Shown here: positions 3,207 through 22,035 of the stretch, one piece after another
Layout: each line of letters opens with the position of its first letter
Numbering within the stretch: the stretch's first letter is position 1
IMG/VR virus record: IMGVR_UViG_3300025674_000311
Span: 1-26,760 of that record
DNA: 26,760 nucleotides
Direction: 5' to 3' (one strand)
Origin: a virus
Program-made: the position numbers and the translations under genes
The notes under the pieces: generated by a model
What the model was told of the DNA's origin: nothing
The model's database searches: none
The model's input: only the letters and a program-made list of their open reading frames with translations

Positions 3207-3239
3207 ACTGGGTCGTCGGGAGATTCTCGGCGACCCAGT
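3207..3239 (+). other. Long GC-rich hairpin
   Basis: The arms ACTGGGTCG and CGACCCAGT pair over nine bases. Pairing continues inward with two G-T wobbles to about 15 pairs closed by a short GAT loop. It starts 22 bases after a TTGACA box. Only TTTC follows, so it is a weak terminator candidate; it could be the 5' hairpin of a small RNA or of an early-mRNA leader. Confidence 0.6.
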
Positions 3240-3393: not shown

Positions 3394-3422
3394 TTGACTA
3401 TACCCTTGCGGGGGAGTATCTT
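3394..3422 (+). promoter_or_regulatory. Sigma70-type early promoter
   Basis: TTGACT (3394-3399), a 17-base spacer and TATCTT (3417-3422) give good -35 and -10 boxes with optimal spacing. The start would be near 3429, giving a leader of about 20 bases with AGAGGAG (3436-3442) before the ATG at 3449. The box type differs from the late TATAAATA promoters, so the unit at 3449-7706 is probably read early by host RNA polymerase. Confidence 0.65.
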
Positions 3423-3448: not shown

Positions 3449-3925
3449 ATGTCTGAATTTTCCGAGCTTTCTTCTCTTTCCTCGATTCTGCTTGCGATTG
3501 GGGGCGAAGCTCCGATCGACGTTGCCGAGTCGATCCTTCTTCTTCCTATTCATCGGCGACCCGCTGCGATTGCTTCCTTTATTCGCAAGCGCGCCGCTGC
3601 CGCTGCTCGATCTGCTACGCTTCGGGTCAAGGCAGCTCGTCGCGAGTTTGCTTCGATCGTTATTCCGAAGCCGACTCCTCGCATCACTCGCGCTGCTGCC
3701 GATCATACGCTTCGGCTTTCTTCCGGTTTCACCGATTCTCCGGCGATGAAGGCATTCCTCGCGAACGGTGGTTCGATCGAGGTTCTTCCGACGCGGAACT
3801 CCGTCGGTTTCAAGCGAAACAAGATTCGCGCTGGTTCCGGTTCGACGGTCACTGCGCTCCATAAGTCTCGCGCTGCTCACTCTCGCGTCGCTCGCGAGAT
3901 TCGTTCTTCTCGGTCTTCTTTCTAA
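3449..3925 (+). CDS. Basic Ala/Ser/Arg-rich protein, unknown
   Basis: A 158-residue protein with a strong ribosome site. Residues 35-75 are extremely Ala/Arg-rich (SFIRKRAAAAARSATLRVKAARRE) and probably a long basic helix; the C-terminus (118-158) is again Arg/Ser/Lys-rich. No catalytic motif is visible. It is the first gene after the early promoter, 26 bases before the VWA gene, and shares that gene's unusual GC-rich codon use. A nucleic-acid-binding or host-takeover role is possible. I do not recognise a family. Confidence 0.7.
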   Translation: MSEFSELSSLSSILLAIGGEAPIDVAESILLLPIHRRPAAIASFIRKRAAAAARSATLRVKAARREFASIVIPKPTPRITRAAADHTLRLSSGFTDSPAMKAFLANGGSIEVLPTRNSVGFKRNKIRAGSGSTVTALHKSRAAHSRVAREIRSSRSSF

Positions 3926-3951
3926 TCTAGCCTAACGAGGTCTTCAATATA

Positions 3952-6411
3952 ATGTCCGTTTCTTTCAATACCGATTCCCTGCTCGATGATCGCGAACGTC
4001 GCGAAGTTCGGTTTGGTCGCAGCATCGTCAATCTTGAGTCGATCAATCAGCTTGCGAAGTTGCTTGCTCGCGAGGATCTTTCGATCGTTCACGATCCTGC
4101 TGCGAAGACTGCTTCGTTCACTCCTTCGACGCGCGTTCTGACTCTTCCTGCTTGGAACAATATTCCGAAGATTGTTTATCTTCTGTTTGCGGGTCACGAG
4201 ATCGGTCATGCTCTGTTTACTCCGGCTGATGGTTTCGATCATCCGTTGGTTCGCAAGGAGCTTCTCAATACTCCCTATATGGGACTCCTCAACATTGCCG
4301 AGGATGTTCGCATTGAGAAGCGTGTCAAGCGCAAGTACCCCGGTCTTCGCGCCGACTTTGCTGCTGGCTATGATCGGCTGTTTTCTGCTGGTTTCTTCGG
4401 TGTCGCTGCTGCCGATATTCCTGAACAGAATCTTGCCGATCGCCTGAACCTTCGGTTCAAGATGGGTTCTGCTGGTGCTGACATTATTCATTTCGCCGAT
4501 GGTGTCGAGACTGACTTCCTCAATCGAGGGTTCAATCTCGAATCGTTCGAGGATGCTGTTGTCTATGCCAACGATCTTTACGACTATCTTGTAGATCAGG
4601 AACAGCAAGAGAAGGAACAACAGCAGCAGAGTTCGCAGAGTGACGATGACTCCAACACTAGCGATGGCGACGAGTCCAACGATTCCGTTTCCAGCGCGAC
4701 TGATGAGTCTGGTGATGAGTCTGGTGAAAGTGCGGAGGCTTCTTCTGATTCTTCCGATGCTTCGTCTTCGGATAGTGACGATGCTTCGGGCGATGCCGAC
4801 GCTAATGCTGACGCTGACGCTGACGCTAATGCTGACGCTGACGCTGACGCTGACGCTGATGCCGACGCTGATGCCGACGCTAATGCTGATGCCGACGCTG
4901 ATGCCGAGTCGGATGCCGATGGTGAGGGTACTGCTTCCGGTGATGCTGGTAGCAGTAACGATGACGATTCGCCGTCGTTCGTCACTATCACCGACAATGC
5001 TTCGCGCGATGCGATGGATTCGTTGATTGATCGTAATGCCAAGGTTTCTCGTAATCTCAACATTCCTTTCGAGCGTGTCGATTGGAAGTCGATGATCGAC
5101 GATACTCTGGTCATTCTCGATCAGTTTGATGCTCACGTTGCCACTTCTCTTCATGACGCTGCCGCTTCACAGTTCTTTGCTGATCTTCGCGAGCAAACTA
5201 GTCGGTTCCTTTCGGCTTCCAAGCCGATCGTTTCTCAGCTTGCCAAAGAGTTTGAGATGCGTAAGGCTGCGGATCAGCATCGCCGATCGTCGGTGTCTCG
5301 GACTGGTTCTATCAATGTCGGTAAGCTCCATGCTTACCAGTACGAGGAGGATATTTTTCTTCGCAAGACGATGATGCCCGATGGCAAGAATCATGGCATG
5401 GTTATGTACCTCGATCTTTCGGGTTCGATGGTTCGTAATATGTCTGGTACGATTGACCAGTTGATTAACTTGGTCATGTTCTGTAAGCGAGTCCAGATTC
5501 CTTTCGAGGTTTACGGATTCAATGACGAGTTTCGTGTTGCGAATCGTGATGTCAATCATCCCTATGCTCTCAATGATGTTGTTGTTGATCCCGGTGCGTA
5601 TCTTCGCAAGTTTATTTCTTCGGAGTTGAAGCCGAAAGACTTCAAGCGCGCATTGGAATATCTCTTCTTCATGCGAGAGTATTGGCGAGTCTATACCTCA
5701 CGAGGCACAGATTCGACTGATTGGATGAGTAAGTATACTTACCTTCTTCGACCGATCAAGTCTGACTACCTCTGTTCGACACCTTTGGATGATACTCTGA
5801 TTTATGCCTATGGCATTCTTGATGATTTCAAGCGTCGAACTCGTGTTCAGATTTGTAACTTCATCATTCTTTCCGACGGCGGTTCCAATGCCATTCGACA
5901 ATGGAAGAACAGTCCTGATCGCGGCAGTCGCGAGTCTGTTGGTTATAATGGTTGCAATACGGAGGATCATTACTTCTACGACGAACACACCCGAACTCGT
6001 TTCAAGTCTGAGGGTCGCATGGATCACTCGACCGGCTTTCTCCTTGATTGCATCAAGGCGCGACTCGGTGGTATTCGCACGATCGGTTTCTATTTGATTC
6101 CGTTCTCTGGTGCCAAGACTCGTAGGATTGTTGCTAATGCTTATACTGACAATCGCGTCAGCGAAAATCTGACTGATGCTCAGTACGAAACCTTCAAGAA
6201 GGATGGTGTTATCGTTTCGTACAATGCTGGATACGATGCTCGCTTTCTTATCAAGGCTGGCAAGTCACTCGACTTTGATGACGGTGACATTCTCGATGGC
6301 GTCGCGGATAATGCTTCTTTGAGCAAGATTCGTACTGCCTTCAAGACTGGTTCCAAGAAGAAGGTTTCTTCTCGGGTCTTCATCAACAAGTTTGCGGAAA
6401 CTATTTCGTAA
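3952..6411 (+). CDS. HExxH-containing VWA-domain protein (CobT-like layout)
   Basis: An 819-residue protein in three parts. (1) N-terminal domain with HEIGH at 82-86 and NIAEDVRIEK at 114-123, the arrangement of a zinc metallopeptidase-like site (HExxH plus a downstream acidic ligand). (2) A Glu/Asp/Ser linker, about residues 205-325, including an (Asp-Ala)n tract. (3) A C-terminal VWA domain with the MIDAS motif DLSGS at 488-492 and a later acidic SDGGS at 641-645. VWA plus acidic linker recalls the CobT subunit of cobaltochelatase, and its neighbour is a CobS/MoxR-like ATPase. Such pairs act as AAA+ remodelling machines in which the VWA subunit recruits substrate through a metal ion. Cobalamin synthesis itself is unlikely, since no other pathway gene is present. 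The substrate is unknown. Confidence 0.8.
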   Translation: MSVSFNTDSLLDDRERREVRFGRSIVNLESINQLAKLLAREDLSIVHDPAAKTASFTPSTRVLTLPAWNNIPKIVYLLFAGHEIGHALFTPADGFDHPLVRKELLNTPYMGLLNIAEDVRIEKRVKRKYPGLRADFAAGYDRLFSAGFFGVAAADIPEQNLADRLNLRFKMGSAGADIIHFADGVETDFLNRGFNLESFEDAVVYANDLYDYLVDQEQQEKEQQQQSSQSDDDSNTSDGDESNDSVSSATDESGDESGESAEASSDSSDASSSDSDDASGDADANADADADANADADADADADADADADANADADADAESDADGEGTASGDAGSSNDDDSPSFVTITDNASRDAMDSLIDRNAKVSRNLNIPFERVDWKSMIDDTLVILDQFDAHVATSLHDAAASQFFADLREQTSRFLSASKPIVSQLAKEFEMRKAADQHRRSSVSRTGSINVGKLHAYQYEEDIFLRKTMMPDGKNHGMVMYLDLSGSMVRNMSGTIDQLINLVMFCKRVQIPFEVYGFNDEFRVANRDVNHPYALNDVVVDPGAYLRKFISSELKPKDFKRALEYLFFMREYWRVYTSRGTDSTDWMSKYTYLLRPIKSDYLCSTPLDDTLIYAYGILDDFKRRTRVQICNFIILSDGGSNAIRQWKNSPDRGSRESVGYNGCNTEDHYFYDEHTRTRFKSEGRMDHSTGFLLDCIKARLGGIRTIGFYLIPFSGAKTRRIVANAYTDNRVSENLTDAQYETFKKDGVIVSYNAGYDARFLIKAGKSLDFDDGDILDGVADNASLSKIRTAFKTGSKKKVSSRVFINKFAETIS
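4792..4914 (+). repeat. Six-base repeat encoding (Asp-Ala)n
   Basis: About 120 bases made of GCTGAC-like hexamers with GCTGAT, GCCGAC and GCTAAT variants, inside the acidic linker of the VWA gene. It encodes alternating Asp/Asn and Ala. Six is a multiple of three, so slippage would change linker length without a frameshift. The same repeat produces long open frames on the other strand that are not genes. Confidence 0.9.
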
Positions 6412-6458
6412 ACTTTTCACTTTCGATTTTCAATAAAAAACAAGGGGTTCATTTCATT

Positions 6459-7706
6459 ATGTCTAATCGTCAGTCTCGTGCTACTGTTGCCGACAAGAAC
6501 AAGTTCATCGAGCTTGCTCGCAATGAGTTTGGTGACACCATTTCTCGTAAGGATGTTCTGCATCTTTGCGAGAAGCACGACCTTCCCACTCCGACTTGGT
6601 TGATGGGCGGCAAGTTTGCTGCTGGTCGCGGACTGTATGCTGTTCCTGCTGCGTTCGAGTCTGGTACTTCTGCTGCTGCTCCGAAGAAGAAGAAGGTTGC
6701 TCGCAAGAGCAAGAAGGCTGCTGCTCCGAAGGTTGCTGCTCCCGTTGTTGCCGATGCTCCGGCGTCTGCTTCTGCTGGTTCGGTTCGCTCTGGTCTGCTT
6801 GACAGTCTGGTTCCGAGCAAGTCGTCGAACTTTGTTCCGTTCGGTTCGTTCAACGACATTCACCAGATCATCGCTTCGGAGATGTTCTATCCGGTCTTCA
6901 TCACTGGTCTTTCTGGTAACGGCAAGACCTTCGGTGTCGAGCAGGCATGTGCCAAGGCTGATCGCGAGTGCGTTCGAGTCAATCTCACTATCGAGACTGA
7001 CGAGGACGATCTGATCGGCGGCTTCCGACTGGTCAACGGCGAGACTGTTTTCCAGAAGGGTCCGGTTGTCGAAGCGATGGAACGTGGTGCTGTTCTGCTC
7101 CTCGACGAGATTGATCTTGCTTCCAACAAGATCATGTGCCTTCAGCCGGTGCTTGAAGGCAAGCCGCTCTTCCTCAAGAAGATCGGTGAACTCGTCGAAC
7201 CTGCTGCTGGGTTCAACATCGTTGCTACTGCCAACACCAAGGGTAAGGGTGATGATGCTGGTCGCTTCATCGGAACGAATGTTCTGAACGAGGCGTTCCT
7301 TGAGCGGTTCCCGATCACGTTCGAGCAGGCTTATCCTTCGGTCACGATCGAGAAGAAGATCGTTGCCAAGGAACTCAAGCTCCTCGGTTCCGAGGACGAC
7401 GAGTTTGCTGCCAACCTTGTCAACTGGGCAGACACGATTCGCAAGACTTTCTTCGACGGTGGTGTCGATGAGATCATTGCTACTCGGCGTCTGATTCACA
7501 TTGCCAAGGCGTACTCGATCTTCGGTGATCGACTCAAGGCAGTCGAGCTTTGTGTCGCTCGCTTCGACGACGAGACGAAGGAGTCCTTCATCGACCTTTA
7601 CAAGAAGCTCGATGCGGAAGCCAACGCCACTACTGTCGAGGCTGCTGCTTCTGAAGCTGGATCGTCGGAAACGGTTTCCGATGGTGACACTCTCGCTCCG
7701 TTCTAA
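6459..7706 (+). CDS. MoxR/CobS-like AAA+ ATPase
   Basis: A 415-residue protein. Residues 1-50 contain a small helical domain (SRKDVLHLCEKHDLPTPTWL). Residues about 75-115 are an Ala/Lys/Pro-rich linker. The AAA+ core has Walker A GLSGNGKT at 150-157 and Walker B VLLLDEID at 212-219, and ATANTKGKG fits the sensor-1 region. The family resembles the phage gene often annotated cobS in T4-like cyanophages. MoxR-family ATPases work with VWA partners, and here the VWA gene is immediately upstream (47 bases), so the two probably form one complex. All Lys codons I could read are AAG, unlike most of the window. It is the last gene of its transcript before the tRNA cluster. Confidence 0.85.
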   Translation: MSNRQSRATVADKNKFIELARNEFGDTISRKDVLHLCEKHDLPTPTWLMGGKFAAGRGLYAVPAAFESGTSAAAPKKKKVARKSKKAAAPKVAAPVVADAPASASAGSVRSGLLDSLVPSKSSNFVPFGSFNDIHQIIASEMFYPVFITGLSGNGKTFGVEQACAKADRECVRVNLTIETDEDDLIGGFRLVNGETVFQKGPVVEAMERGAVLLLDEIDLASNKIMCLQPVLEGKPLFLKKIGELVEPAAGFNIVATANTKGKGDDAGRFIGTNVLNEAFLERFPITFEQAYPSVTIEKKIVAKELKLLGSEDDEFAANLVNWADTIRKTFFDGGVDEIIATRRLIHIAKAYSIFGDRLKAVELCVARFDDETKESFIDLYKKLDAEANATTVEAAASEAGSSETVSDGDTLAPF

Positions 7707-7728: not shown

Positions 7729-7805
7729 GCTCCCGTAACTCAGTCGGTTAGAGTGCCGTTCTTATAAAGCGGTGGTCGCGGGTTCGAGTCCCGCCGGGAG
7801 TACCA
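7729..7805 (+). tRNA. tRNA-Ile (anticodon UAU)
   Basis: A full cloverleaf of 77 bases: acceptor GCTCCCG with CGGGAGT (first pair G-U), D arm ACTC/GAGT, anticodon arm CCGTT-CTTATAA-AGCGG, T arm GCGGG-TTCGAGT-CCCGC, and encoded CCA. The loop gives anticodon TAT, reading AUA. Most bacteria read AUA with a CAU tRNA modified to lysidine, so a UAU tRNA is noteworthy. Confidence 0.93.
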
Positions 7806-7818
7806 TTCATTTTTTTGT

Positions 7819-7841
7819 CGCTACTATCACGCGCCTAACAT
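7819..7841 (+). repeat. Leader element, copy 1
   Basis: CGCTACTATCAC-GCGCCTAACAT lies 19 bases before the ATG at 7860. A second copy at 12070-12090 is identical except for lacking two bases (GC) in the middle. Both lie just upstream of short genes, which suggests a shared regulatory or binding sequence. Confidence 0.6.
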
Positions 7842-7859
7842 CTTCGGAGTTTTGATTAT

Positions 7860-8225
7860 ATGCCCGGTTCTTTTATTGAAACTAAATATGATGGAATCGA
7901 CGTTTCTCGTCCGGTAGGCAAAACGAATCTTCCCTCAAAGCACATGTATTTTGTGGGTGATCGTCGCGCTTTGTTTCTTCGATTTGAATCCTCTCGACCA
8001 ACGCGAAATTCTTACAGCGTATTCAAGTTTGTCGATGAGGATGGTAATTTGTTTATTTGTTTCTCAGACCACATTGAGTTCAACAAAGATCCGATCGAGC
8101 CGGGAAACTGTTATATTTTGAATGCTACCATCAAGCGTCATTCTCATAATGCTTATGAGAATATTGAGGAAACTCATATCAATCGAATCAAGGTTCTGAA
8201 GTGCCTTGGCAAAAAGGATAAGTAG
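7860..8225 (+). CDS. Unknown small beta-rich protein
   Basis: A 121-residue protein with GGAG at 7846-7849 before its ATG. Residues 28-95 alternate short hydrophobic strands and turns (YSVFKFVDEDGNLFICFS, NCYILNATIKRH), compatible with an OB-like or other small beta barrel, followed by a basic C-terminus. It heads a run of four small genes between tRNA-Ile and tRNA-Thr. It could bind nucleic acid, but no diagnostic residues are visible and I do not recognise the family. Confidence 0.7.
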   Translation: MPGSFIETKYDGIDVSRPVGKTNLPSKHMYFVGDRRALFLRFESSRPTRNSYSVFKFVDEDGNLFICFSDHIEFNKDPIEPGNCYILNATIKRHSHNAYENIEETHINRIKVLKCLGKKDK

Positions 8226-8227
8226 TA

Positions 8228-8410
8228 ATGGAATCGCATATTAAATACATTGTTGAGAAAACGATCAATCGTATTGATTCTGAATTTAGTGTTTTGTCTG
8301 ATGAAGTTGTTGACGAAAAAACGAGTCAACTGATTGGTCACATTCACCTTTTGATTTCTTGTCTTTTGGAAGACATGGATCGGGAGCTTGAAATTGTTGG
8401 AGGGTATTGA
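8228..8410 (+). CDS. Small acidic helical protein, unknown
   Basis: A 60-residue ORF beginning two bases after the previous stop, with AAAGGA upstream. It is Glu/Asp-rich and almost entirely helical by composition. The next gene's GTG start lies one base after its stop, and that gene's ribosome site sits inside its last codons, so the two are translationally coupled. No function can be assigned. Confidence 0.6.
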   Translation: MESHIKYIVEKTINRIDSEFSVLSDEVVDEKTSQLIGHIHLLISCLLEDMDRELEIVGGY

Positions 8411-8411
8411 A

Positions 8412-8615
8412 GTGAAGAATGAGATTATTGTTGAGTTACTTTCTCCGGTAGATGATATTTTGTCGGAGCTTTCTCTTGATAAGAATAGTAAGGTCAAGTT
8501 GGAGTTGGCATTGAACAAGGTTCGATCGAACCTGAATGACCTTTTCAGTGATATGTTCGACGCAGACGATCCGTATGCTTTCATGGTAGGAGAAGATGAC
8601 TACGATGATTTCTGA
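8412..8615 (+). CDS. Small acidic protein, GTG start
   Basis: A 67-residue protein. The same frame is open further upstream from a TTG at 8388, but GGAGGG at 8399-8404 is seven bases before GTG 8412, so I chose the GTG. Residues 1-50 look helical with a heptad-like pattern; the C-terminus is very acidic with aromatic residues (MVGEDDYDDF), a tail type seen in single-stranded-DNA-binding proteins and DNA mimics. Its last 20 bases overlap the next gene in another frame. The function is unknown. Confidence 0.6.
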   Translation: MKNEIIVELLSPVDDILSELSLDKNSKVKLELALNKVRSNLNDLFSDMFDADDPYAFMVGEDDYDDF

Positions 8616-8922
8616 CGAAAACGAACTCGATGATATTTACATGGCAGCGCATGGTCGTTTCCTTGATGACATTGGGTTGACGTTTCGTGATTCAGTTATA
8701 TTGGAATCATCGAGTTACGGTTACTCTTCTGATGATGTTGCTGCGATTGCCAACACACTCGAACTTCAATATGATCGCGAGAGATTTCAATACCTTCACG
8801 AGAATGTTCTTTGTGAATCTTTGGATGAAGATGTTTTGAATGAGTTTTTGAATAGTTCGCCACTCGATAGATTGCTTCGCATCAGCGAGTTGGTTGAACG
8901 TATTCAAGACATGGACCCCTAG
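8596..8922 (+). CDS. Acidic helical protein, unknown
   Basis: A 108-residue protein overlapping the previous gene by 20 bases. Start choice is uncertain: AGGAG at 8588-8592 is three bases before ATG 8596 (short) and twelve before ATG 8605 (long). The protein is acidic, mostly helical and lacks Cys clusters or a signal. It ends ten bases before tRNA-Thr. No family is recognised; co-location suggests a role shared with the three small genes before it. Confidence 0.65.
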   Translation: MTTMISDENELDDIYMAAHGRFLDDIGLTFRDSVILESSSYGYSSDDVAAIANTLELQYDRERFQYLHENVLCESLDEDVLNEFLNSSPLDRLLRISELVERIQDMDP

Positions 8923-8932
8923 CTCAATTTAA

Positions 8933-9008
8933 GCCGACTTAGCTCAGATGGAAGAGCGCGATACTTGTAATATCGAAGTCGTCGGTTCGATTCCGACAGT
9001 CGGCTCCA
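8933..9008 (+). tRNA. tRNA-Thr (anticodon UGU)
   Basis: A 76-base cloverleaf: acceptor GCCGACT with AGTCGGC, anticodon arm CGATA-CTTGTAA-TATCG giving TGT, T arm GTCGG-TTCGATT-CCGAC, discriminator T and encoded CCA. It reads ACA and by wobble other ACN codons. Confidence 0.95.
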
Positions 9009-9159
9009 TTTTGATTATCTGTAACCACTGTGCGGAAACCGCTGGTCTGCGCCAGTCCCGGACGCTCGTCACGGCGGAGCCGGTTAGGGCGAGGTAGCAG
9101 TAAGGACCGCCAACAGAAGATGCCGCCTCTGTGACGAGAGGCGGGGACTTCGTTTTTAC
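9009..9159 (+). other. Structured GC-rich spacer between tRNA-Thr and tRNA-Arg
   Basis: A 150-base gap with no ORF, clearly GC-richer than its neighbours. CTCGTCAC (9065-9072) can pair over eight bases with GTGACGAG (9131-9138). Alternatively CCGCCTCT (9123-9130) pairs with AGAGGCGG (9137-9144), with five T bases a few bases further on. The two pairings compete for the same bases. It begins with a 34-base repeat also found at 10496. It may be a small RNA, a processing spacer or the remains of lost tRNA genes. Confidence 0.5.
9027..9060 (+). repeat. 34-base direct repeat, copy 1 (tRNA-Leu 3' half-like)
   Basis: Identical over 34 bases to 10496-10529. It contains GCGG-AAA-CCGC and CTGG...CCAG inverted repeats. 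It resembles the variable arm and T arm of the tRNA-Leu at 9638-9724 with a deletion, and lacks the acceptor end here. Confidence 0.8.
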
Positions 9160-9236
9160 GCACTCGTAGCTCAGTTGGATAGAGCGGTTGCCTTCTAAGC
9201 AACGGGTCGCAGGTTCGAGTCCTGCCGGGTGCGCCA
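9160..9236 (+). tRNA. tRNA-Arg (anticodon UCU)
   Basis: A 77-base cloverleaf: acceptor GCACTCG with CGGGTGC, anticodon arm GTTGC-CTTCTAA-GCAAC giving TCT, T arm GCAGG-TTCGAGT-CCTGC, discriminator G and encoded CCA. It reads AGA and AGG, codons usually rare in GC-rich hosts. Confidence 0.95.
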
Positions 9237-9267
9237 TTTCTTAAAAAAGGAAAAAGGAAATTTGAAT

Positions 9268-9435
9268 ATGACGATGGGATTAGTTCCGAGGAAAACTTCA
9301 CAAATCGGATCTTTGAATTTTGACGTTGAAAAGATCAACAATGGCTACTTATGTCATCACGAATCAGACACATGGTTTTTTCCAAACAAGGAAGACCTAG
9401 TAAAGTATATCACTGATTTGATCGAAGAGATTTGA
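9268..9435 (+). CDS. Small protein, unknown
   Basis: A 55-residue ORF. AAAAAGGAAA upstream supports ATG 9268 (an in-frame ATG at 9274 is also possible). The sequence has a WFF aromatic cluster and ends with an acidic helix (DLVKYITDLIEEI). Its TGA is directly followed by the ATG of the next small gene, so both probably form a coupled pair between tRNA-Arg and tRNA-Lys. The function is unknown. Confidence 0.55.
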   Translation: MTMGLVPRKTSQIGSLNFDVEKINNGYLCHHESDTWFFPNKEDLVKYITDLIEEI

Positions 9436-9540
9436 ATGACAACTTTAGAGAAAATGTTTTGGGGTCTGATAACCGCAGTGATCGTAACAGCATGGTCGCT
9501 GCGTCTTGTTGGGGTGTTTCCGATATTCACAGTTTGGTAG
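9436..9540 (+). CDS. 34-residue single-span membrane peptide
   Basis: A short ORF starting at the base after the previous stop, with GAAGAGA upstream. Residues about 8-32 are one continuous hydrophobic helix with aromatic ends (MFWGLITAVIV...VGVFPIFTVW), so it is a small inner-membrane peptide. Phages use such peptides as holin-like or host-inhibiting factors, but nothing here specifies which. Confidence 0.5.
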   Translation: MTTLEKMFWGLITAVIVTAWSLRLVGVFPIFTVW

Positions 9541-9552
9541 CAGATATTTGAT

Positions 9553-9629
9553 GGGCTCGTAGCTCAATTGGTTAGAGCAAGAGGCTTTTAACCTCTAGGT
9601 TCTCGGTTCGATTCCGAGCGGGCTCTCCA
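9553..9629 (+). tRNA. tRNA-Lys (anticodon UUU)
   Basis: A 77-base cloverleaf: acceptor GGGCTCG with CGGGCTC (two G-U pairs), anticodon arm AGAGG-CTTTTAA-CCTCT giving TTT, T arm CTCGG-TTCGATT-CCGAG, discriminator T and encoded CCA. It reads AAA and AAG. Confidence 0.94.
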
Positions 9630-9637
9630 TTTCATTT

Positions 9638-9724
9638 GCCGGGTTGGTGGAATTGGTATACACAGAAGACTTAAAATCTTCCGACCGCAAGGTCTTGCGG
9701 GTTCGAGTCCCGCACCCGGCACCA
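9638..9724 (+). tRNA. tRNA-Leu (anticodon UAA)
   Basis: An 87-base type II tRNA with acceptor GCCGGGT/ACCCGGC, anticodon arm GAAGA-CTTAAAA-TCTTC giving TAA, a long variable arm (CCGACCGCAAGGTCTT region), T arm GCGGG-TTCGAGT-CCCGC and encoded CCA. It reads UUA. It lies eight bases after tRNA-Lys, and fragments like its 3' half recur at 9027 and 10496. Confidence 0.95.
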
Positions 9725-9760
9725 TTATTTTGATAGTAAATAGTGAAAGGAATAATAATA

Positions 9761-10309
9761 ATGAAGACTTATAGTCGCGATGAACTGGAAGAAATTCTCA
9801 GGCTGCACGAACTCTGGGTCAATCGAAAGAAAGGCGGCAAACGCGCGGACCTGATCGGCGCGAACCTGACTGGCGCGTACCTGCGCGGAGCGTACCTGCG
9901 CGGAGCGAAGCTGACCGGCGCGAACCTGCGCTGGGCGGACCTGAACTGCGCGTTCCTGCCCGGCGCGAACCTGACCGGCGCGGACCTTATCGACGCGAGC
10001 ATGACTAGCGCAAACCTGTTTTGCGCGTCTCTGGTCGGCGCGACGTTGCGCCGCGCAAAACTGACCGACGCGAACCTGCGCTGGGCGAACCTGACCGACG
10101 CGAACCTGCGCTGGGCGAACCTGACCGACGCGGACCTGAGCAACGCGAACCTTCGCGGCGCGTATCTGGACGGCGCGGAACTGTTCGGCGCGGAACTGTT
10201 CGGCGCGGACCTGTTCGGCGCGGATCTTCGCAGCGCGGATCTTCGCAGCGCGGATTTGTCTGACGCAAACCTGACCGACGCTCTACTCGACGAGCGCACT
10301 AAGTTTTAG
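9761..10309 (+). CDS. Pentapeptide-repeat protein
   Basis: A 182-residue protein. I use ATG 9761 because AAAGGA at 9746-9751 is correctly spaced; a GTG at 9743 would include the ribosome site. Residues 1-32 are a helical N-terminus with a basic patch (NRKKGGKR). From about 35 to 175 the protein is made of A(D/N/Y)LxG-type pentapeptides, roughly 28 of them, which fold as a right-handed quadrilateral beta-helix. Some family members mimic DNA and protect topoisomerase, but most have no known role. The DNA is much richer in GC than its neighbours and uses GCG and CTG almost exclusively. Exact tandem copies (30 bases near 10069-10128, 15 bases near 10224-10253) indicate growth by duplication and recent transfer. 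Confidence 0.85.
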   Translation: MKTYSRDELEEILRLHELWVNRKKGGKRADLIGANLTGAYLRGAYLRGAKLTGANLRWADLNCAFLPGANLTGADLIDASMTSANLFCASLVGATLRRAKLTDANLRWANLTDANLRWANLTDADLSNANLRGAYLDGAELFGAELFGADLFGADLRSADLRSADLSDANLTDALLDERTKF

Positions 10310-10311
10310 AA

Positions 10312-10491
10312 ATGGCAAAAAGAAATAAGTATCTTCTTCGTCACGCTTGTTCTGCATGTAAAGCATCTGTCTACTTCTGCGAAGACCCAGCGTGCAGATG
10401 CTTCCATCACGCATTCGACACGTTCGATGAGTACGAACACGAGCGAACGAGCTGCAAAATCGAAGATGTGGTAGAGATTTTTACTAAGTGA
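10312..10491 (+). CDS. Small Cys/His-rich protein, possible zinc-binding
   Basis: A 59-residue ORF starting two bases after the pentapeptide gene stop, so translation may be coupled. It holds CSAC (13-16), then CEDPACRCFHH, giving six or more Cys and several His in the first 40 residues, as in small zinc-binding proteins, although the spacing does not match a named finger. The C-terminus is acidic. It ends just before the repeat with tRNA-Leu remnants. The function is unknown. Confidence 0.5.
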   Translation: MAKRNKYLLRHACSACKASVYFCEDPACRCFHHAFDTFDEYEHERTSCKIEDVVEIFTK

Positions 10492-10495
10492 AACT

Positions 10496-10541
10496 ACTGT
10501 GCGGAAACCGCTGGTCTGCGCCAGTCCCGCACCCGGCACCA
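10496..10541 (+). pseudogene. 34-base repeat copy 2 joined to a tRNA-Leu 3' end (tRNA remnant)
   Basis: 10496-10529 equals 9027-9060. The run from 10523 (GTCCCGCACCCGGCACCA) continues exactly as the T-arm and acceptor end of the tRNA-Leu at 9638-9724, including CCA. Upstream, ACCGC-TGGTC-TGCG aligns with the tRNA-Leu variable arm ACCGC-AAGGTCTTGCG. No 5' half is present, so it cannot be a working tRNA. It is best explained as a decayed or recombined tRNA-Leu copy. Confidence 0.65.
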
Positions 10542-10561
10542 TTTTTAACCGTTGTCATTAG

Positions 10562-10684
10562 GGGGCTCCTCTTGACCCAAATGAGTGGTAGCATTTGGCT
10601 GATGGGAAAAGATGAATAATGATGAGCCCCGCGTTGTCTCCTCCGGGTTAGCGTTTGCCTATCATTAATCTTTTCCACTACCAC
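10562..10684 (+). ncRNA. Putative pseudoknotted structured RNA in the tRNA cluster
   Basis: No ORF or tRNA is present, but several helices are evident. P1 is GGGGCTC (10562-10568) with GAGCCCC (10624-10630). P2 is the hairpin CCAAATG (10577-10583) with CATTTGG (10592-10598). P3 is GGAAAAGAT (10605-10613) with ATCTTTTCC (10668-10676), stacked on P4, AATGAT (10618-10623) with ATCATT (10661-10666). P1 crosses P3/P4, an H-type pseudoknot. The P2 loop GTGGTAG (10585-10591) is complementary to CTACCAC (10678-10684), a second crossing contact. Six T bases follow, then tRNA-Pro. T4 also keeps small stable RNAs (species 1 and 2) in its tRNA cluster. No known class was matched; the topology differs from HDV-like and tmRNA folds. 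Confidence 0.6.
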
Positions 10685-10694
10685 ATTTTTTATA

Positions 10695-10771
10695 CGGGGA
10701 TTAGCTCAGTCTGGTAGAGTGTTCGCTTTGGGAGCGAAAGGTCGTAGGTTCAACTCCTACATCCCCGACCA
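10695..10771 (+). tRNA. tRNA-Pro (anticodon UGG)
   Basis: A 77-base cloverleaf: acceptor CGGGGAT with ATCCCCG, starting with C1 as bacterial tRNA-Pro does, anticodon arm TTCGC-TTTGGGA-GCGAA giving TGG, T arm GTAGG-TTCAACT-CCTAC and encoded CCA. It reads CCA and by wobble CCG. Confidence 0.95.
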
Positions 10772-10789: not shown

Positions 10790-11197
10790 ATGTCTTTGAG
10801 TAAAGAGAACAAAGCTACTCGAAAACTGCTTCGTGATCTTGTTCAACACGCAGAGTGGTTAGGGCATGTTCCTTATTTTCCGATCAAGGTAGTCTTCAAG
10901 CCTGAAAAGCAAATGGATGATTGCTACGCGACAACGGAGTTGAAAGGCAAGGGATCTAAAAGATATATTGAAATTGCTTTCGATGAAGAATATTTGAAAA
11001 CATCGCATGGGCGAGATTTGTGTAAAGTCAATATGATACACGAACTTGCCCATGCTCTTACATGGTCAAACAACACCAGAGTAGAAGAAGCTCGCACGAT
11101 GAAGTATGGTACACATGGTCCCGAGTTTGGTATTGTGTATGCTCAACTCTGGGAAGATTTGATCGAAGGTCGCCCGGAGGAACACGAAGATTCTTGA
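10790..11197 (+). CDS. SprT-like zinc metalloprotease
   Basis: A 135-residue protein starting after TAGGAG. It carries HELAH at 84-88 (two zinc His and catalytic Glu) and a third potential ligand in HGPEF at 109-113, the H-G-x-x-F signature of SprT/SprTN-type proteases and phage relatives. The size equals the compact catalytic domain. SprT-like enzymes cleave DNA-bound or crosslinked proteins in eukaryotes; the phage role is unknown. It begins 18 bases after tRNA-Pro and precedes phoH. It is confident as a metallopeptidase-like protein and less so as SprT sensu stricto. Confidence 0.75.
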   Translation: MSLSKENKATRKLLRDLVQHAEWLGHVPYFPIKVVFKPEKQMDDCYATTELKGKGSKRYIEIAFDEEYLKTSHGRDLCKVNMIHELAHALTWSNNTRVEEARTMKYGTHGPEFGIVYAQLWEDLIEGRPEEHEDS

Positions 11198-17673: not shown

Positions 17674-17736
17674 TTCAACAAATGCCAAAGTTGGGTTTGT
17701 TGAATATAACTTGCTTATTATAAGGAGAAAAAGCAA
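17674..17736 (+). promoter_or_regulatory. hsp20 leader: two hairpins, possible RNA thermometer
   Basis: Hairpin 1: TTCAACAAA (17674-17682) with TTTGTTGAA (17696-17704), with an inner CCA/TGG. Hairpin 2: TTGCTT (17711-17716) with AAGCAA (17731-17736), whose loop holds the ribosome site AAGGAG (17722-17727) and whose stem includes the A of the start codon. Alphaproteobacterial hsp20 genes are known for ROSE-type RNA thermometers that mask the ribosome site, with a conserved UUGCU. TTGCT is present here, but the base pairing differs from classical ROSE. Confidence 0.5.
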
Positions 17737-18200
17737 TGAATAAAATCACAACGTCATATAGAATGCCCAATGTTTTCAACGAACTTCGCAACGATCCGTT
17801 TCTTTTAGGATTCGATCAAATCTTTGATCGCCTTCTATCTACGGGAGTCGGAGCTTCGCAAGGGGCATCTTATCCTCCCTACAACATCGTAAAGGTTTCT
17901 GATAATCAGTTTCGTATTGAACTTGCGATTGCGGGATTTACTGAGGATGAAGTTTCGGTAACTGTTCTGGATGATAAGCTGACTGTCGAGTCCGACAAGA
18001 AGAATGATGTGGTTGCCGAGAATGAAGTTAGACTTCATCAAGGAATTGCGGAGCGTAACTTCAAGCGAGTATGGACATTGAGTCCTACTGTTGTTGTTAC
18101 TGGAGCGGATCTGGTCAATGGTCTTTTGACGATTACGTTGGAGAATGTTGTACCGGAAAAGGATTCTCCGAAAAAGATTCCGATCAACAAAACTTTGTAA
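17736..18200 (+). CDS. Small heat shock protein Hsp20
   Basis: A 154-residue protein with the three parts of IbpA/Hsp20 chaperones: a hydrophobic N-terminal arm (1-45, PNVFNELRNDPFLLGFDQIFDRLL), an alpha-crystallin domain (about 48-138; YNIVKVSDNQFRIELAIAGF, RNFKRVWTLSPTVVV, NGLLTITLENV) and a C-terminal I-x-I anchor IPI at 148-150. Such proteins hold unfolding proteins and form oligomers. hsp20 is a frequent auxiliary gene of T4-like cyanophages. It has its own promoter, structured leader and strong terminator, so it is an independent transcription unit. Confidence 0.95.
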   Translation: MNKITTSYRMPNVFNELRNDPFLLGFDQIFDRLLSTGVGASQGASYPPYNIVKVSDNQFRIELAIAGFTEDEVSVTVLDDKLTVESDKKNDVVAENEVRLHQGIAERNFKRVWTLSPTVVVTGADLVNGLLTITLENVVPEKDSPKKIPINKTL

Positions 18201-18844: not shown

Positions 18845-21412
18845 GTGAGTTTTTATACGAACGTCAAAGTTGTTGGTGATTATATCTTCCTTCGTGGTGT
18901 GAATGGTGAAGGTAAGCGATACGATAAGAAGCTGAAGTATAGCCCGGTACGCTTTGTTCCTACGAAAGATAAAACAAAGTATACTACACTTGATGGTAGG
19001 CATGTTGCTCCCGTGAAGTTTGAAACAATAAAGGAAGCTCGTAACTTCATCGAACAATATAAGGATGTAGACAATTTTCCGATTTATGGTTACGATAGGT
19101 ACGACACGACTTTCATTGGGGATGAATATCCCGGTGAGATTGATTATGATTTTTCTAAACTGGTAGTTGCCAATATTGATATTGAGGTTGCGTCTGACGA
19201 AGGGTTTCCTGATCCGAAGTTCGCGTCATCTCCTATCATTTCGATCGCAGTCAAGTTCAACAACAAGTTTCTTGTTTTTGGATATGGAGAACCTGATGGA
19301 TGTAATATCGCAGATACTCTCGCAGCTCGGGGTATTGATTATATTTCTTGTGAAGACGAGCTTGATCTATTGGATCGTTTTATTCGTGCTTGGTCTAGTG
19401 TATACCCTGATATTGTTACGGGATGGAACGTAAACGGATTTGATATTCCGTACATCATCAATCGAATCACTCGCGTCAAGTCTGAAAAAGAAGCTCGTAA
19501 AATCTCTCCTTGGAAACACTATGACTCGCGAACCTTCACAGGTAAGTATGGAGCCGAAGTTACGAACTACTTGATCTCTGGGATTTCTGTTCTTGATTAC
19601 ATCGAGCTTTATCAAAAGTTCACTTATGTAAATCGGGAAAGTTATCGACTTGATTATATTGCCAATGTTGAGCTTGGTGAACGAAAGCTATCTTACTCTG
19701 AGTTTGGTAGTCTTCATACTCTTTACAAAAGAGATTATCATAAGTTCATTGAATATAACGTCAAGGATGTTGAGCTTGTAGAAAGACTTGAAGACAAGAT
19801 GAAGTTGATTGAGATGGTTGCCGCGATGACTTATTCATCGAAGGTAAACTTCGGTGATGTTTTCTCACAGGTTAGAATGTGGGAAAATCTTTGCTATCAT
19901 CATCTCAAGAAAACCAATCGTGTATTTCCTGAAAGAAAGGATGGAGAAAAGACTGCGAAGTTTGAAGGTGCTTATGTAAAAGAACCTCAAGTCGGGTTTC
20001 ATCGTTGGGTAGTTTCTTTTGATTTGAACTCACTCTATCCACATTTGATGATGCAGTATAATCTTTCCCCAGAGAAGTTGCTCACAGAAAATCAGGTGGA
20101 GTCTGATTTGGTTTCTTCTTTCAAGGAAGACGCATGGCGCACTTCTTTGGAGTACGATAAGATTATTGACAAGGAGTTTGATACTTCACTTCTCAAGATA
20201 TATAATCTTACGATCGCACCGAATCTTATGTTCTTCAAAAGAGATTCGCAAGGATTTCTTCCCGAGATTCTTCAAGACCTTTATGACAAAAGAAAAATGT
20301 CAAAGAAGAAGATGATTGAGTGCGAACAAAAAGCACAGACTGTTACAGGTGAAGAAAAACGAAAATATGTAAATCTAATCTCTAAACATAATAACGATCA
20401 GCTTGCCAGAAAGGTTCAGTTGAATAGTGCTTATGGTGCATTGGGAAATGAATACTTTCGTTTCTATGATCTCCGTATTGCCGAGGCTGTAACCAAGGCT
20501 GGTCAACTTTCTATTCGATGGATTGAAAAGAGGATCAATGAGTATTTGAATGAACTATTGAAGACGAGTGATGTTGATTATGTTCTCGCTTCTGATACAG
20601 ACAGCATTTATGTTGTTCTCGATAAACTTGTCGAGTCTGTATTTGAAAATGAAAAAGATAATCACAAGATCGTTCGTTTTCTTGATAAGGTTTGTAACAA
20701 AACTATTGAACCTTACATCGAAGAGTGCTACAATGATCTGGCAGAATATATGAATGCCTATGACCAAAAGATGGTTATGAAGAGAGAAGCAATTGCTTCT
20801 ACTGGTTTGTGGACTGCCAAGAAAAGATACGTTCTCAACGTATATGACAATGAAGGAGTTTCTTATAATGAACCTAAGCTGAAGGTGATGGGTCTTGAAT
20901 CCGTCAAGTCTTCTACGCCGGAAGTTTGTCGAGACAAAATCAAAGACGTTCTTGGAATTATTATGAATGGAACTGAGAAACAGGTTCAGGAATATATTTC
21001 AAACTTCAAGAAAGAGTTTCACAATCTTGCCGCAGAGGATATTGCTTTCCCTCGTGGAGTCAATGGTATCGAACGGTACACCGAAGGCAGAACCTATATA
21101 AAAGGTACACCGATTCATGTGAAGGGATGTATCAACTACAATCGTCTAATTCAAAAACATAATTTGAATTTGACGTATCCGATTATTAAAGATGGAGACA
21201 AAATAAAGTTCATGTACCTAATAGAACCAAATCCAATTGGTGAATCTGTGATCTCTACACAGAATGCTTTGCCTGAAGAGTTTGGTTTGAATGATTATGT
21301 TGATTATGATAAACAGTTTGAGAAGACATTTCTCGATCCTGTAAAAGTATTGTTGAATTGTATTGGATGGAAATCTGAACAAGTCAACACACTAGAAAGG
21401 TTTTTTGGATGA
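18845..21412 (+). CDS. 43: DNA polymerase family B, T4 gp43-like
   Basis: An 855-residue protein (T4 gp43 is 898). GAGGTG at 18836-18841 favours GTG 18845 over the in-frame GTG 18839. The exonuclease domain has NIDIEV with D112 and E114, TGWNVNGFDIPYI and YNVKDVELV. Polymerase motif A is FDLNSLYP with D393, motif B is KVQLNSAYGALGN from 523, and motif C is ASDTDSIYV with D584 and D586. The C-terminus LERFFG resembles the T4 clamp-binding end LDFLFG. It is the replicative polymerase with proofreading, and no key residue is missing. The gene overlaps the ClpP-like gene by four bases. Confidence 0.97.
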   Translation: MSFYTNVKVVGDYIFLRGVNGEGKRYDKKLKYSPVRFVPTKDKTKYTTLDGRHVAPVKFETIKEARNFIEQYKDVDNFPIYGYDRYDTTFIGDEYPGEIDYDFSKLVVANIDIEVASDEGFPDPKFASSPIISIAVKFNNKFLVFGYGEPDGCNIADTLAARGIDYISCEDELDLLDRFIRAWSSVYPDIVTGWNVNGFDIPYIINRITRVKSEKEARKISPWKHYDSRTFTGKYGAEVTNYLISGISVLDYIELYQKFTYVNRESYRLDYIANVELGERKLSYSEFGSLHTLYKRDYHKFIEYNVKDVELVERLEDKMKLIEMVAAMTYSSKVNFGDVFSQVRMWENLCYHHLKKTNRVFPERKDGEKTAKFEGAYVKEPQVGFHRWVVSFDLNSLYPHLMMQYNLSPEKLLTENQVESDLVSSFKEDAWRTSLEYDKIIDKEFDTSLLKIYNLTIAPNLMFFKRDSQGFLPEILQDLYDKRKMSKKKMIECEQKAQTVTGEEKRKYVNLISKHNNDQLARKVQLNSAYGALGNEYFRFYDLRIAEAVTKAGQLSIRWIEKRINEYLNELLKTSDVDYVLASDTDSIYVVLDKLVESVFENEKDNHKIVRFLDKVCNKTIEPYIEECYNDLAEYMNAYDQKMVMKREAIASTGLWTAKKRYVLNVYDNEGVSYNEPKLKVMGLESVKSSTPEVCRDKIKDVLGIIMNGTEKQVQEYISNFKKEFHNLAAEDIAFPRGVNGIERYTEGRTYIKGTPIHVKGCINYNRLIQKHNLNLTYPIIKDGDKIKFMYLIEPNPIGESVISTQNALPEEFGLNDYVDYDKQFEKTFLDPVKVLLNCIGWKSEQVNTLERFFG

Positions 21413-22035
21413 TGATGGAAAACAATAATGAAGAAGTGGTTGAAGTAACGCTCGATGCGTCGAGTTCTGCCAGCGAGGTACTGGGTGCTTTGTTTGGCGG
21501 AGATGGTGACACACTAGATAAGGCTGGCGTGTTCATGTTGATGGATGATATTAAAAATGATTCCGTTCGACCCGCGATTGAGTGGATCTTTCGCCACAAC
21601 TTCTCAAATAACCAACCTGAAAGTTTGACGATGATTATCAATTCGAGTGGTGGATCTGTTACCGATGCGTTTGCTCTTATTGATACAATGCGTGGATCGG
21701 GTATTCCGATTCGCACGATTGGGTTGGGCGAGGTGTCGAGTGCTGCTTTGATGATCTTCATGGCAGGTCAAAAGGGTCATCGTTTACTCACTCCAAATAC
21801 TGCCATTCTATCTCATCAGTATTCTTGGGGAAAGTGGGGTAAGGAACATGAACTTCTTACTGCCAAGAAGGCATTTGATTTGACGGCAAAGATGATTCTG
21901 GATCATTATAAGAAGTGTACCGGAATGAATGAAAAGAAGATTCGTGAGGTTTTGCTTCCTGCTCACGACGTTTGGTTGAGTGCGAAGGAAGCAAAGGCTT
22001 TTGGTATTTGTGACGAGATTAGGGAGCTTCGATAA
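21409..22035 (+). CDS. ClpP-like serine protease
   Basis: A 208-residue protein starting inside the polymerase stop (ATGATGATG; three possible starts). [19 protein letters not shown] (77-95) is the ClpP oxyanion region. The catalytic triad would be S111 (GEVSSAA, matching ClpP GQAASMG), H136 (AILSHQ, matching MIHQ) and D187 ([10 protein letters not shown], matching RDRFLSAPEA). Length and spacing equal bacterial ClpP. Phage ClpP-like proteases often mature capsids, but this one lies between gene 43 and uvsX, suggesting an early or middle role or use of a host Clp ATPase. The 40 N-terminal residues are acidic and not ClpP-like. Confidence 0.88.

Follow-up and report, generated by a model that had tools for sequence, protein, structure and literature searches.

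The 25 core genes of cyanophages include the one annotated as cobS (PMC3037559), which occurs in almost all marine T4-like cyanophages and has been counted as a B12 gene and community marker (PMC9983427, PMC2984593). Its product has been said to catalyze the final step of cobalamin synthesis (PMC2984593) or has been termed a "cobalamin synthetase" (PMC9983427). In a 2021 study, the gene and its neighbor were together called cobST, the latter being described as "mistakenly annotated as a peptidase", and the viral pair was proposed to hijack host CobN (PMC8651126). The cellular CobST proteins take part in metal-cofactor assembly, with cobalt as the metal (PMC7689651). From group 2.2 jumbo phages, a MoxR-vWA pair carrying an N-terminal metallopeptidase is also known, for which a helper role in virion assembly was proposed (PMC7824862).

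Here, we present an analysis of a three-gene phage unit in which genes 2 and 3 are the known core pair of T4-like cyanophages and pelagiphages, not a new one. We propose that their products form an ATP-driven remodelling machine with a metallopeptidase-like adaptor, and that the B12 label of the pair is probably wrong.

Phage type and gene layout

The stretch of DNA analyzed, referred to as the window, is a 26,760-base IMG/VR virus record and represents only a fragment. Since its DNA polymerase is approximately 50% identical to the counterpart from Prochlorococcus phage P-HM2, and homologues of gp45, gp44, gp62, and RegA are present, the source is, as judged from these homologies, a Kyanoviridae-type, T4-like phage. 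The features discussed below, all on the + strand, are as follows.

3394..3422, +, candidate sigma70-like promoter TTGACT-17-TATCTT (9/12 match; weak)
3449..3925, +, gene 1, orphan basic protein of 158 aa (intact ORF; codon regime as in genes 2 and 3)
3952..6411, +, gene 2, 819-aa protein with a zincin-like HExxH domain, an acidic linker, and a VWA domain with MIDAS (PHROG 459, E 4.5e-161)
4021..4617, +, predicted N-terminal zincin-like domain of gene 2, aa 24-222, with HEIGH and NIAED (AlphaFold pLDDT 91.9, pTM 0.86)
4594..4986, +, acidic linker of gene 2 with a (DA)n repeat, aa 215-345 (35% D/E)
5221..6408, +, region of gene 2 with the VWA domain, aa 424-819; MIDAS D488, S490, S492, T610, D642 (AlphaFold pLDDT 84)
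6459..7706, +, gene 3, 415-aa AAA+ ATPase of the CobS/NorQ/CbbQ clade (PHROG 249, E 1.3e-122)
7729..10771, +, six tRNA genes, Ile-TAT, Thr-TGT, Arg-TCT, Lys-TTT, Leu-TAA, and Pro-TGG (ARAGORN, Rfam)

The PHROG labels are "peptidase" for 459 and "CobS/porphyrin biosynthesis" for 249. Several other genes of the window were recorded. An SprT-like metallopeptidase (10790-11197; Pfam PF10263, E 6e-7), the second HExxH-type protein family of the window, is also encoded by Pelagibacter phage HTVC008M. A ClpP-like protease gene (21409-22035), whose PHROG relatives comprise head maturation and ATP-dependent proteases, is flanked by the DNA polymerase gene on one side and a UvsX/RecA-like gene on the other. 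Directly 5' of a phage hsp20 gene (17736-18200) lies a match to the Rfam ROSE_3 RNA thermometer (17676-17741; 48.3 bits, gathering threshold 43), making heat control of this chaperone possible and hinting at a proteobacterial host; Rfam found no ROSE_3 element in six related loci, some of which carry an hsp20 gene. A library of anti-phage defence systems gave zero matches.

Domain organization of the VWA protein and the ATPase

The initial annotation had described gene 2 as joining a HEIGH...NIAED domain, an acidic repeat linker, and a DLSGS MIDAS, all of which are present (residues 82-86, 114-118, and 488-492 for the three motifs). The linker contains less than 1% K/R, with the DA repeat at residues 282-317, and the phage, mobile-element, and CobT sequences inspected likewise show an acidic linker. 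Across 123 aligned sequences, all below 72% identity and some of them fetched by motif, H82, E83, H86, N114, E117, D118, R120, D488, S490, S492, T610, and D642 are 100% conserved. Because of this partial selection by motif, the unbiased evidence comes from 12 reference phages and from 77 IMG/VR loci, the latter unselected for HExxH since they were fetched through the ATPase alignment alone. All 48 VWA proteins from these loci that are complete at the 5' end contain HExxH, NxxEDxR, and DWSGSM; in the motif NxxED, Vibrio phage MJW has another residue in place of the glutamate (NMVVD). When the window VWA gene alone was used as query, IMG/VR yielded no close relatives, and an alignment profile was required.

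In the AlphaFold model of the N-terminal domain (aa 24-222, built from 112 aligned sequences with the reference-phage rows left out), HExxH is placed inside a helix formed by aa 73-89 and NIAED inside a helix formed by aa 110-128. This predicted arrangement, HExxH with a conserved acidic residue on the following helix, is that of gluzincin-like proteins, and the residues concerned are present in 100% of the 123 sequences. A Foldseek search of the PDB leans toward zincins, which account for 17 of 35 matches, all weak and none reaching E 0.001; selecase ranks first among them (probability 0.75-0.84), followed by ArdC, M1 aminopeptidases, and others. The best matches of the C-terminal region are the VWA domains of NorD in NorQ-NorD complexes (E 2e-6), and the complete MIDAS (DxSxS, T, D) within a predicted VWA fold places gene 2 among VWA co-chaperones.

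Gene 3 encodes, as had been claimed, an intact AAA+ ATPase of the MoxR/CobS type. It contains the conserved Walker A and Walker B motifs (GLSGNGKT and LLLDEID), the conserved N and R residues, and a CbbQ_C-type C-terminus (Pfam AAA_5, E 6.8e-19; CbbQ_C, E 9e-6). The ATPase alignment profile matched CobS (206 bits) in the PDB better than CbbQ (102 bits) or NorQ (92 bits), the larger midasin totals being sums over five or six matched stretches. The nearest solved single-domain relatives of gene 3 are thus CobS proteins, which are active in metal insertion.

Pairing and distribution among phages

A VWA gene lies upstream of the ATPase gene on the same strand in 69 of the 77 ATPase-fetched loci, and the other 8 have less than 2 kb of upstream DNA. 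The pairing is therefore obligate; had related phages mostly carried the ATPase without the VWA gene, the initial reading would have failed, but the only unpaired loci are truncated upstream. Genes 2 and 3 have the layout of phage MoxR-vWA-metallopeptidase pairs, being adjacent on the same strand with the peptidase domain fused N-terminally to the vWA domain. Phage records with a tblastn match number 463 for gene 2 and 514 for gene 3, approximately 450 of each being cyanophages. The gene order gp47-gp46-peptidase-CobS is seen in S-PM2, S-CREM1, S-SSM7, P-RSM6, and others, with gp45 coming next in most.

Replication genes neighbor the pair in four lineages. Klebsiella phage pJN2-26 and E. coli phage PhiR41_1 carry the HExxH pair directly upstream of the gene encoding DNA polymerase III alpha; in Rhizobium phage RHph_Y2_17_1 it adjoins sigma factor and Pol III alpha genes, and in Vibrio phage MJW it lies near primase and polymerase genes. 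Pseudoalteromonas phage XG4 (L010:5941-9475) encodes the VWA half and the HExxH half in different ORFs, then the ATPase apparently in two ORFs, and its VWA protein carries an altered MIDAS (DFSWS).

Codon composition and tRNA genes

The unusual composition shared by the three genes, pointed out in the initial annotation, is borne out by third-position A, which amounts to 0.04-0.05 in genes 1-3 compared with 0.11-0.36 in the other window genes, and by leave-one-out codon likelihood, which groups the three genes together. The six phage tRNAs read ATA, ACA, AGA, AAA, TTA, and CCA. These codons account for 4 of 470 relevant codons in the unit, compared with 386 of 1761 in the later genes (Fisher p 6e-38) and 106 of 287 in the genes at 228-2793. 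They are rarer than other A-ending codons (mean log2 odds -4.5 vs -2.8; Mann-Whitney p 0.017), and the depletion of A-ending codons in genes 1-3 is a general one extending beyond these six. As the codons read by the phage's own tRNAs are almost excluded, the codon regime points to selection for high output with host tRNAs, that is, to heavy translation of the unit.

Third-position A is also lower than in neighboring genes for the VWA gene in 160 of 189 loci and for the ATPase gene in 152 of 165, the neighbors having been picked automatically and some possibly being spurious ORFs. In HTVC008M, the ATPase ranks 2nd and the VWA protein 6th of 55 genes in codon optimization, beside capsid, sheath, and tube genes, whereas in phage OC the two rank 2nd and 3rd of 30 genes, above the capsid gene. 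The pair is thus among the most codon-optimized genes in three phages, including that of the window. Recent gene transfer was rejected as the cause of this composition, since the codons, while poor in A, are rich in T, as is typical of highly expressed genes, and the same lean recurs in relatives. Codon bias was likewise rejected as proof of early timing, given that the HTVC008M capsid, sheath, and tube genes share it. The early deployment initially proposed is not visible in the sequence; the codon data indicate high output, and gene position suggests early or middle expression. Among the papers searched, no published infection time course names the VWA-ATPase pair.

Upstream region and gene 1

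The three-gene unit is preceded by a non-coding gap of approximately 650 bp, in which a strong 15-bp hairpin (ACTGGGTCGTCGGGA/TCTCGGCGACCCAGT; 3207-3239) with no T run was observed. The candidate promoter had been called good, which overstates it: 9 sites in the region score as well, compared with 4.6 +/- 2.1 expected from shuffling, rendering the candidate unremarkable.

Gene 1 is translated, as indicated by the codon regime common to genes 1-3. Its product contains 26 K+R and 10 D+E residues, and no relatives were found by tblastn (50,697 phages; IMG/VR) or by phmmer against 7,123 ORFs of the fetched loci. The segment MKAFLANGGSIEVL at residues 100-113 resembles the RNAP-binding segment of SutA, for which the interface positions have been described (PMC9300723). 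A visual comparison shows gene 1 to have the same or a similar residue at SutA M71, F74, L75, G78, G79, V81, and I84, but to differ at L67; the motif turned up in 4 of 200000 shuffles, and the match to the SutA-type RNAP-binding family (SutA-RBD, Pfam PF20661; 16.6 bits, E 0.0049) falls below the cut-off of 29.3 bits. The likeness is a lead rather than an assignment. Among 1.1 million residues of pair loci, the pattern occurs in only one family of small proteins near the pair. Small lysine-rich proteins containing MKEFLEKGGKIQKL or a close variant, which share the short pattern of gene 1, are encoded near the pair at L179:2803-3168, L181:1111-1407, L150:9224-9547, and L022:8881-9234.

A conserved third gene 5' of the pair was considered and rejected, as the upstream genes differ from phage to phage. 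Gene 1 is part of the unit of this phage and lies outside the conserved machine; the nucleic-acid adaptor role first suggested for it finds no support, as it has no detected relatives and is absent from the conserved unit.

Proposed function and alternative explanations

We consider it probable, with reservations, that the products of genes 2 and 3 make up a two-part, ATP-driven remodelling machine whose adaptor bears an intact zincin-like metallopeptidase domain, and that this machine does not serve B12 synthesis. By analogy with NorQD, CbbQO, and CobST, a hexameric AAA+ ring formed by the gene 3 product would act via the MIDAS of the VWA adaptor. The VWA domain and linker would engage a protein complex, ATP hydrolysis would remodel it, and the zinc domain may clip an exposed segment, zinc binding and proteolysis being suggested by the motif. 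The machine would be made in quantity and, given its high output and its place in the replication block of relatives, would most likely have a host or phage protein complex as its target during the replication phase. The model combines the observed pairing, conserved motifs, and codon regime with predicted domain folds. The initial annotation was accordingly right in kind regarding the HExxH-VWA plus AAA+ architecture, remodelling, possible proteolysis, and the exclusion of B12 synthesis; its "early" timing and its target, a host or phage complex, are proposals.

A virion-assembly chaperone, the role suggested for group 2.2 jumbo phages, would fold or assemble structural proteins, with the peptidase processing them; such a role of the pair appears unlikely to us. 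In its favor, it has been published for a MoxR-vWA pair that bears a metallopeptidase N-terminally, on the model of the tail-assembly pair known from Acidianus two-tailed virus (PMC7824862), and the codon optimization of the HTVC008M pair is comparable to that of the major capsid, sheath, and tube genes. However, the T4-like pair genes are located in the replication/recombination block rather than the structural block, unrelated phages have the pair beside DNA polymerase III alpha or primase/polymerase genes, and both HTVC008M and OC encode a separate gp21 prohead protease.

The HExxH motif could serve metal delivery instead of peptide cleavage. The pair would then be a metal-insertion chaperone that loads metal into a phage or host metalloenzyme, with HExxH/NxxED as the delivery site rather than a protease site. 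The closest relatives of both subunits, NorQ/NorD and CobS/CobT, serve metal-cofactor assembly, which in the case of NorQD involves iron, and HTVC008M encodes several Fe(II) oxygenases and a class Ia RNR. Nevertheless, the perfectly conserved, catalytic-type E83 fits hydrolysis better than mere ligation, and genuine CobT works without HExxH, leaving this explanation rather improbable in our estimation.

The remodelling machine could also be a host-takeover protease that both remodels and cleaves a host complex, with gene 1, in this phage, directing either the machine itself or the transcription complex on which it acts through SutA-like docking on the beta protrusion of the host RNA polymerase. 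We regard this version as very unlikely; if true, it would be a kind of ATP-driven phage metalloprotease that still awaits biochemical characterization.

The cobaltochelatase label

The published proposal for haloarchaeal viruses, extended to cyanophages (PMC8651126), would make the pair an auxiliary cobaltochelatase that joins host CobN and boosts cobalamin synthesis, and the better fit of the ATPase profile to CobS than to CbbQ or NorQ in the PDB agrees with it. However, gene 3 scores 76.9 bits with the CobS equivalog model (NCBIfam TIGR01650) against a cut-off of 558.55, and the CobT models (TIGR01651, Pfam CobT, and CobT_C) have no match in the window, whereas a genuine CobT (L222) reaches 786 bits against the TIGR01651 cut-off of 759. 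Genuine CobT proteins encoded beside CobS (L222, L223) can be aligned along the N-domain and contain ADAYALR or ADALALR where phages keep HExxH. The 26.8-kb window fragment contains no CobN, the remaining component of a class I cobaltochelatase. In addition, the pair is carried by PhiR41_1, whose listed host is E. coli K-12 MG1655, a strain that to our knowledge has no CobN, and by HTVC008M, which has no obvious B12 need for nucleotide reduction because it encodes a B12-independent class Ia ribonucleotide reductase. We consider a part in B12 synthesis highly improbable.

The B12 (cobS/cobT) label of the phage pair is therefore probably wrong, in agreement with the initial view that it misleads. 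The wording "final step" or "cobalamin synthetase" appears to mix two unrelated proteins named CobS. While the peptidase label of the partner has been called a mistake (PMC8651126), our data say the reverse, because every intact phage partner examined keeps the metallopeptidase site that genuine CobT has lost. The pair is also found in phages for which a part in B12 synthesis is hard to justify. Ecological conclusions on phage-driven B12 metabolism drawn from this gene are then unsafe, and the core function that it serves in some of the most abundant viruses of the ocean turns into a concrete question for biochemistry.

Comparison with known systems

The remodelling-machine reading was largely anticipated in print (PMC7824862). 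New here are the invariance across phages, shown without selection bias, of both the metallopeptidase site and the pairing; the negative outcome of the cobaltochelatase tests; the placement of the pair among replication genes in unrelated lineages; and the complementarity of codons and tRNAs. The closest system is the PHROG 459 and 249 pair of cyanophages and pelagiphages, which has the same genes, order, domains, and conserved residues, with 55-70% identity for the ATPase and 30-35% over most of the length of the VWA protein. The window differs from the other loci of this pair in having the 158-aa orphan before it and six tRNAs after it, and its third-position A bias is more extreme than at any compared locus. 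The pair of group 2.2 jumbo phages, likened here by the description given in the paper (PMC7824862), also consists of an AAA+ gene next to one for a vWA protein whose N-terminal domain is a metallopeptidase, but the gene positions in the present case do not favor the virion-assembly role proposed for it.

NorQ-NorD and CbbQ-CbbO share the AAA+ clade (CbbQ_C domain) and the VWA fold with the phage pair, whose adaptor includes an intact HExxH zincin-like domain. Cellular CobS-CobT has a homologous ATPase, an alignable CobT N-domain, an acidic linker, and a MIDAS, but CobT has lost the HExxH kept in phages, and the phage proteins fall below the CobS/CobT equivalog cut-offs. A further group comprises pairs of HExxH-containing CobT-like and CobS-like proteins from Geobacter-type bacteria and methylotrophs (L045-L063). 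These mobile-element-like cellular pairs match the phage profile, so the homology is real, and Pfam CobT scores above its cut-off in three of the four such proteins with searched genomes (L224-L226; L227 is below). Most have the CobS-like ATPase within a few kb and are possibly located on integrative elements. They contain HExxH...NILEDIRIE, an acidic linker, and a MIDAS, as in phages, but the proteins are shorter and the ATPase is usually upstream rather than downstream; they probably constitute a system separate from the phage pair. CobT may have derived from this wider HExxH family by loss of the zincin site, a direction that we infer.
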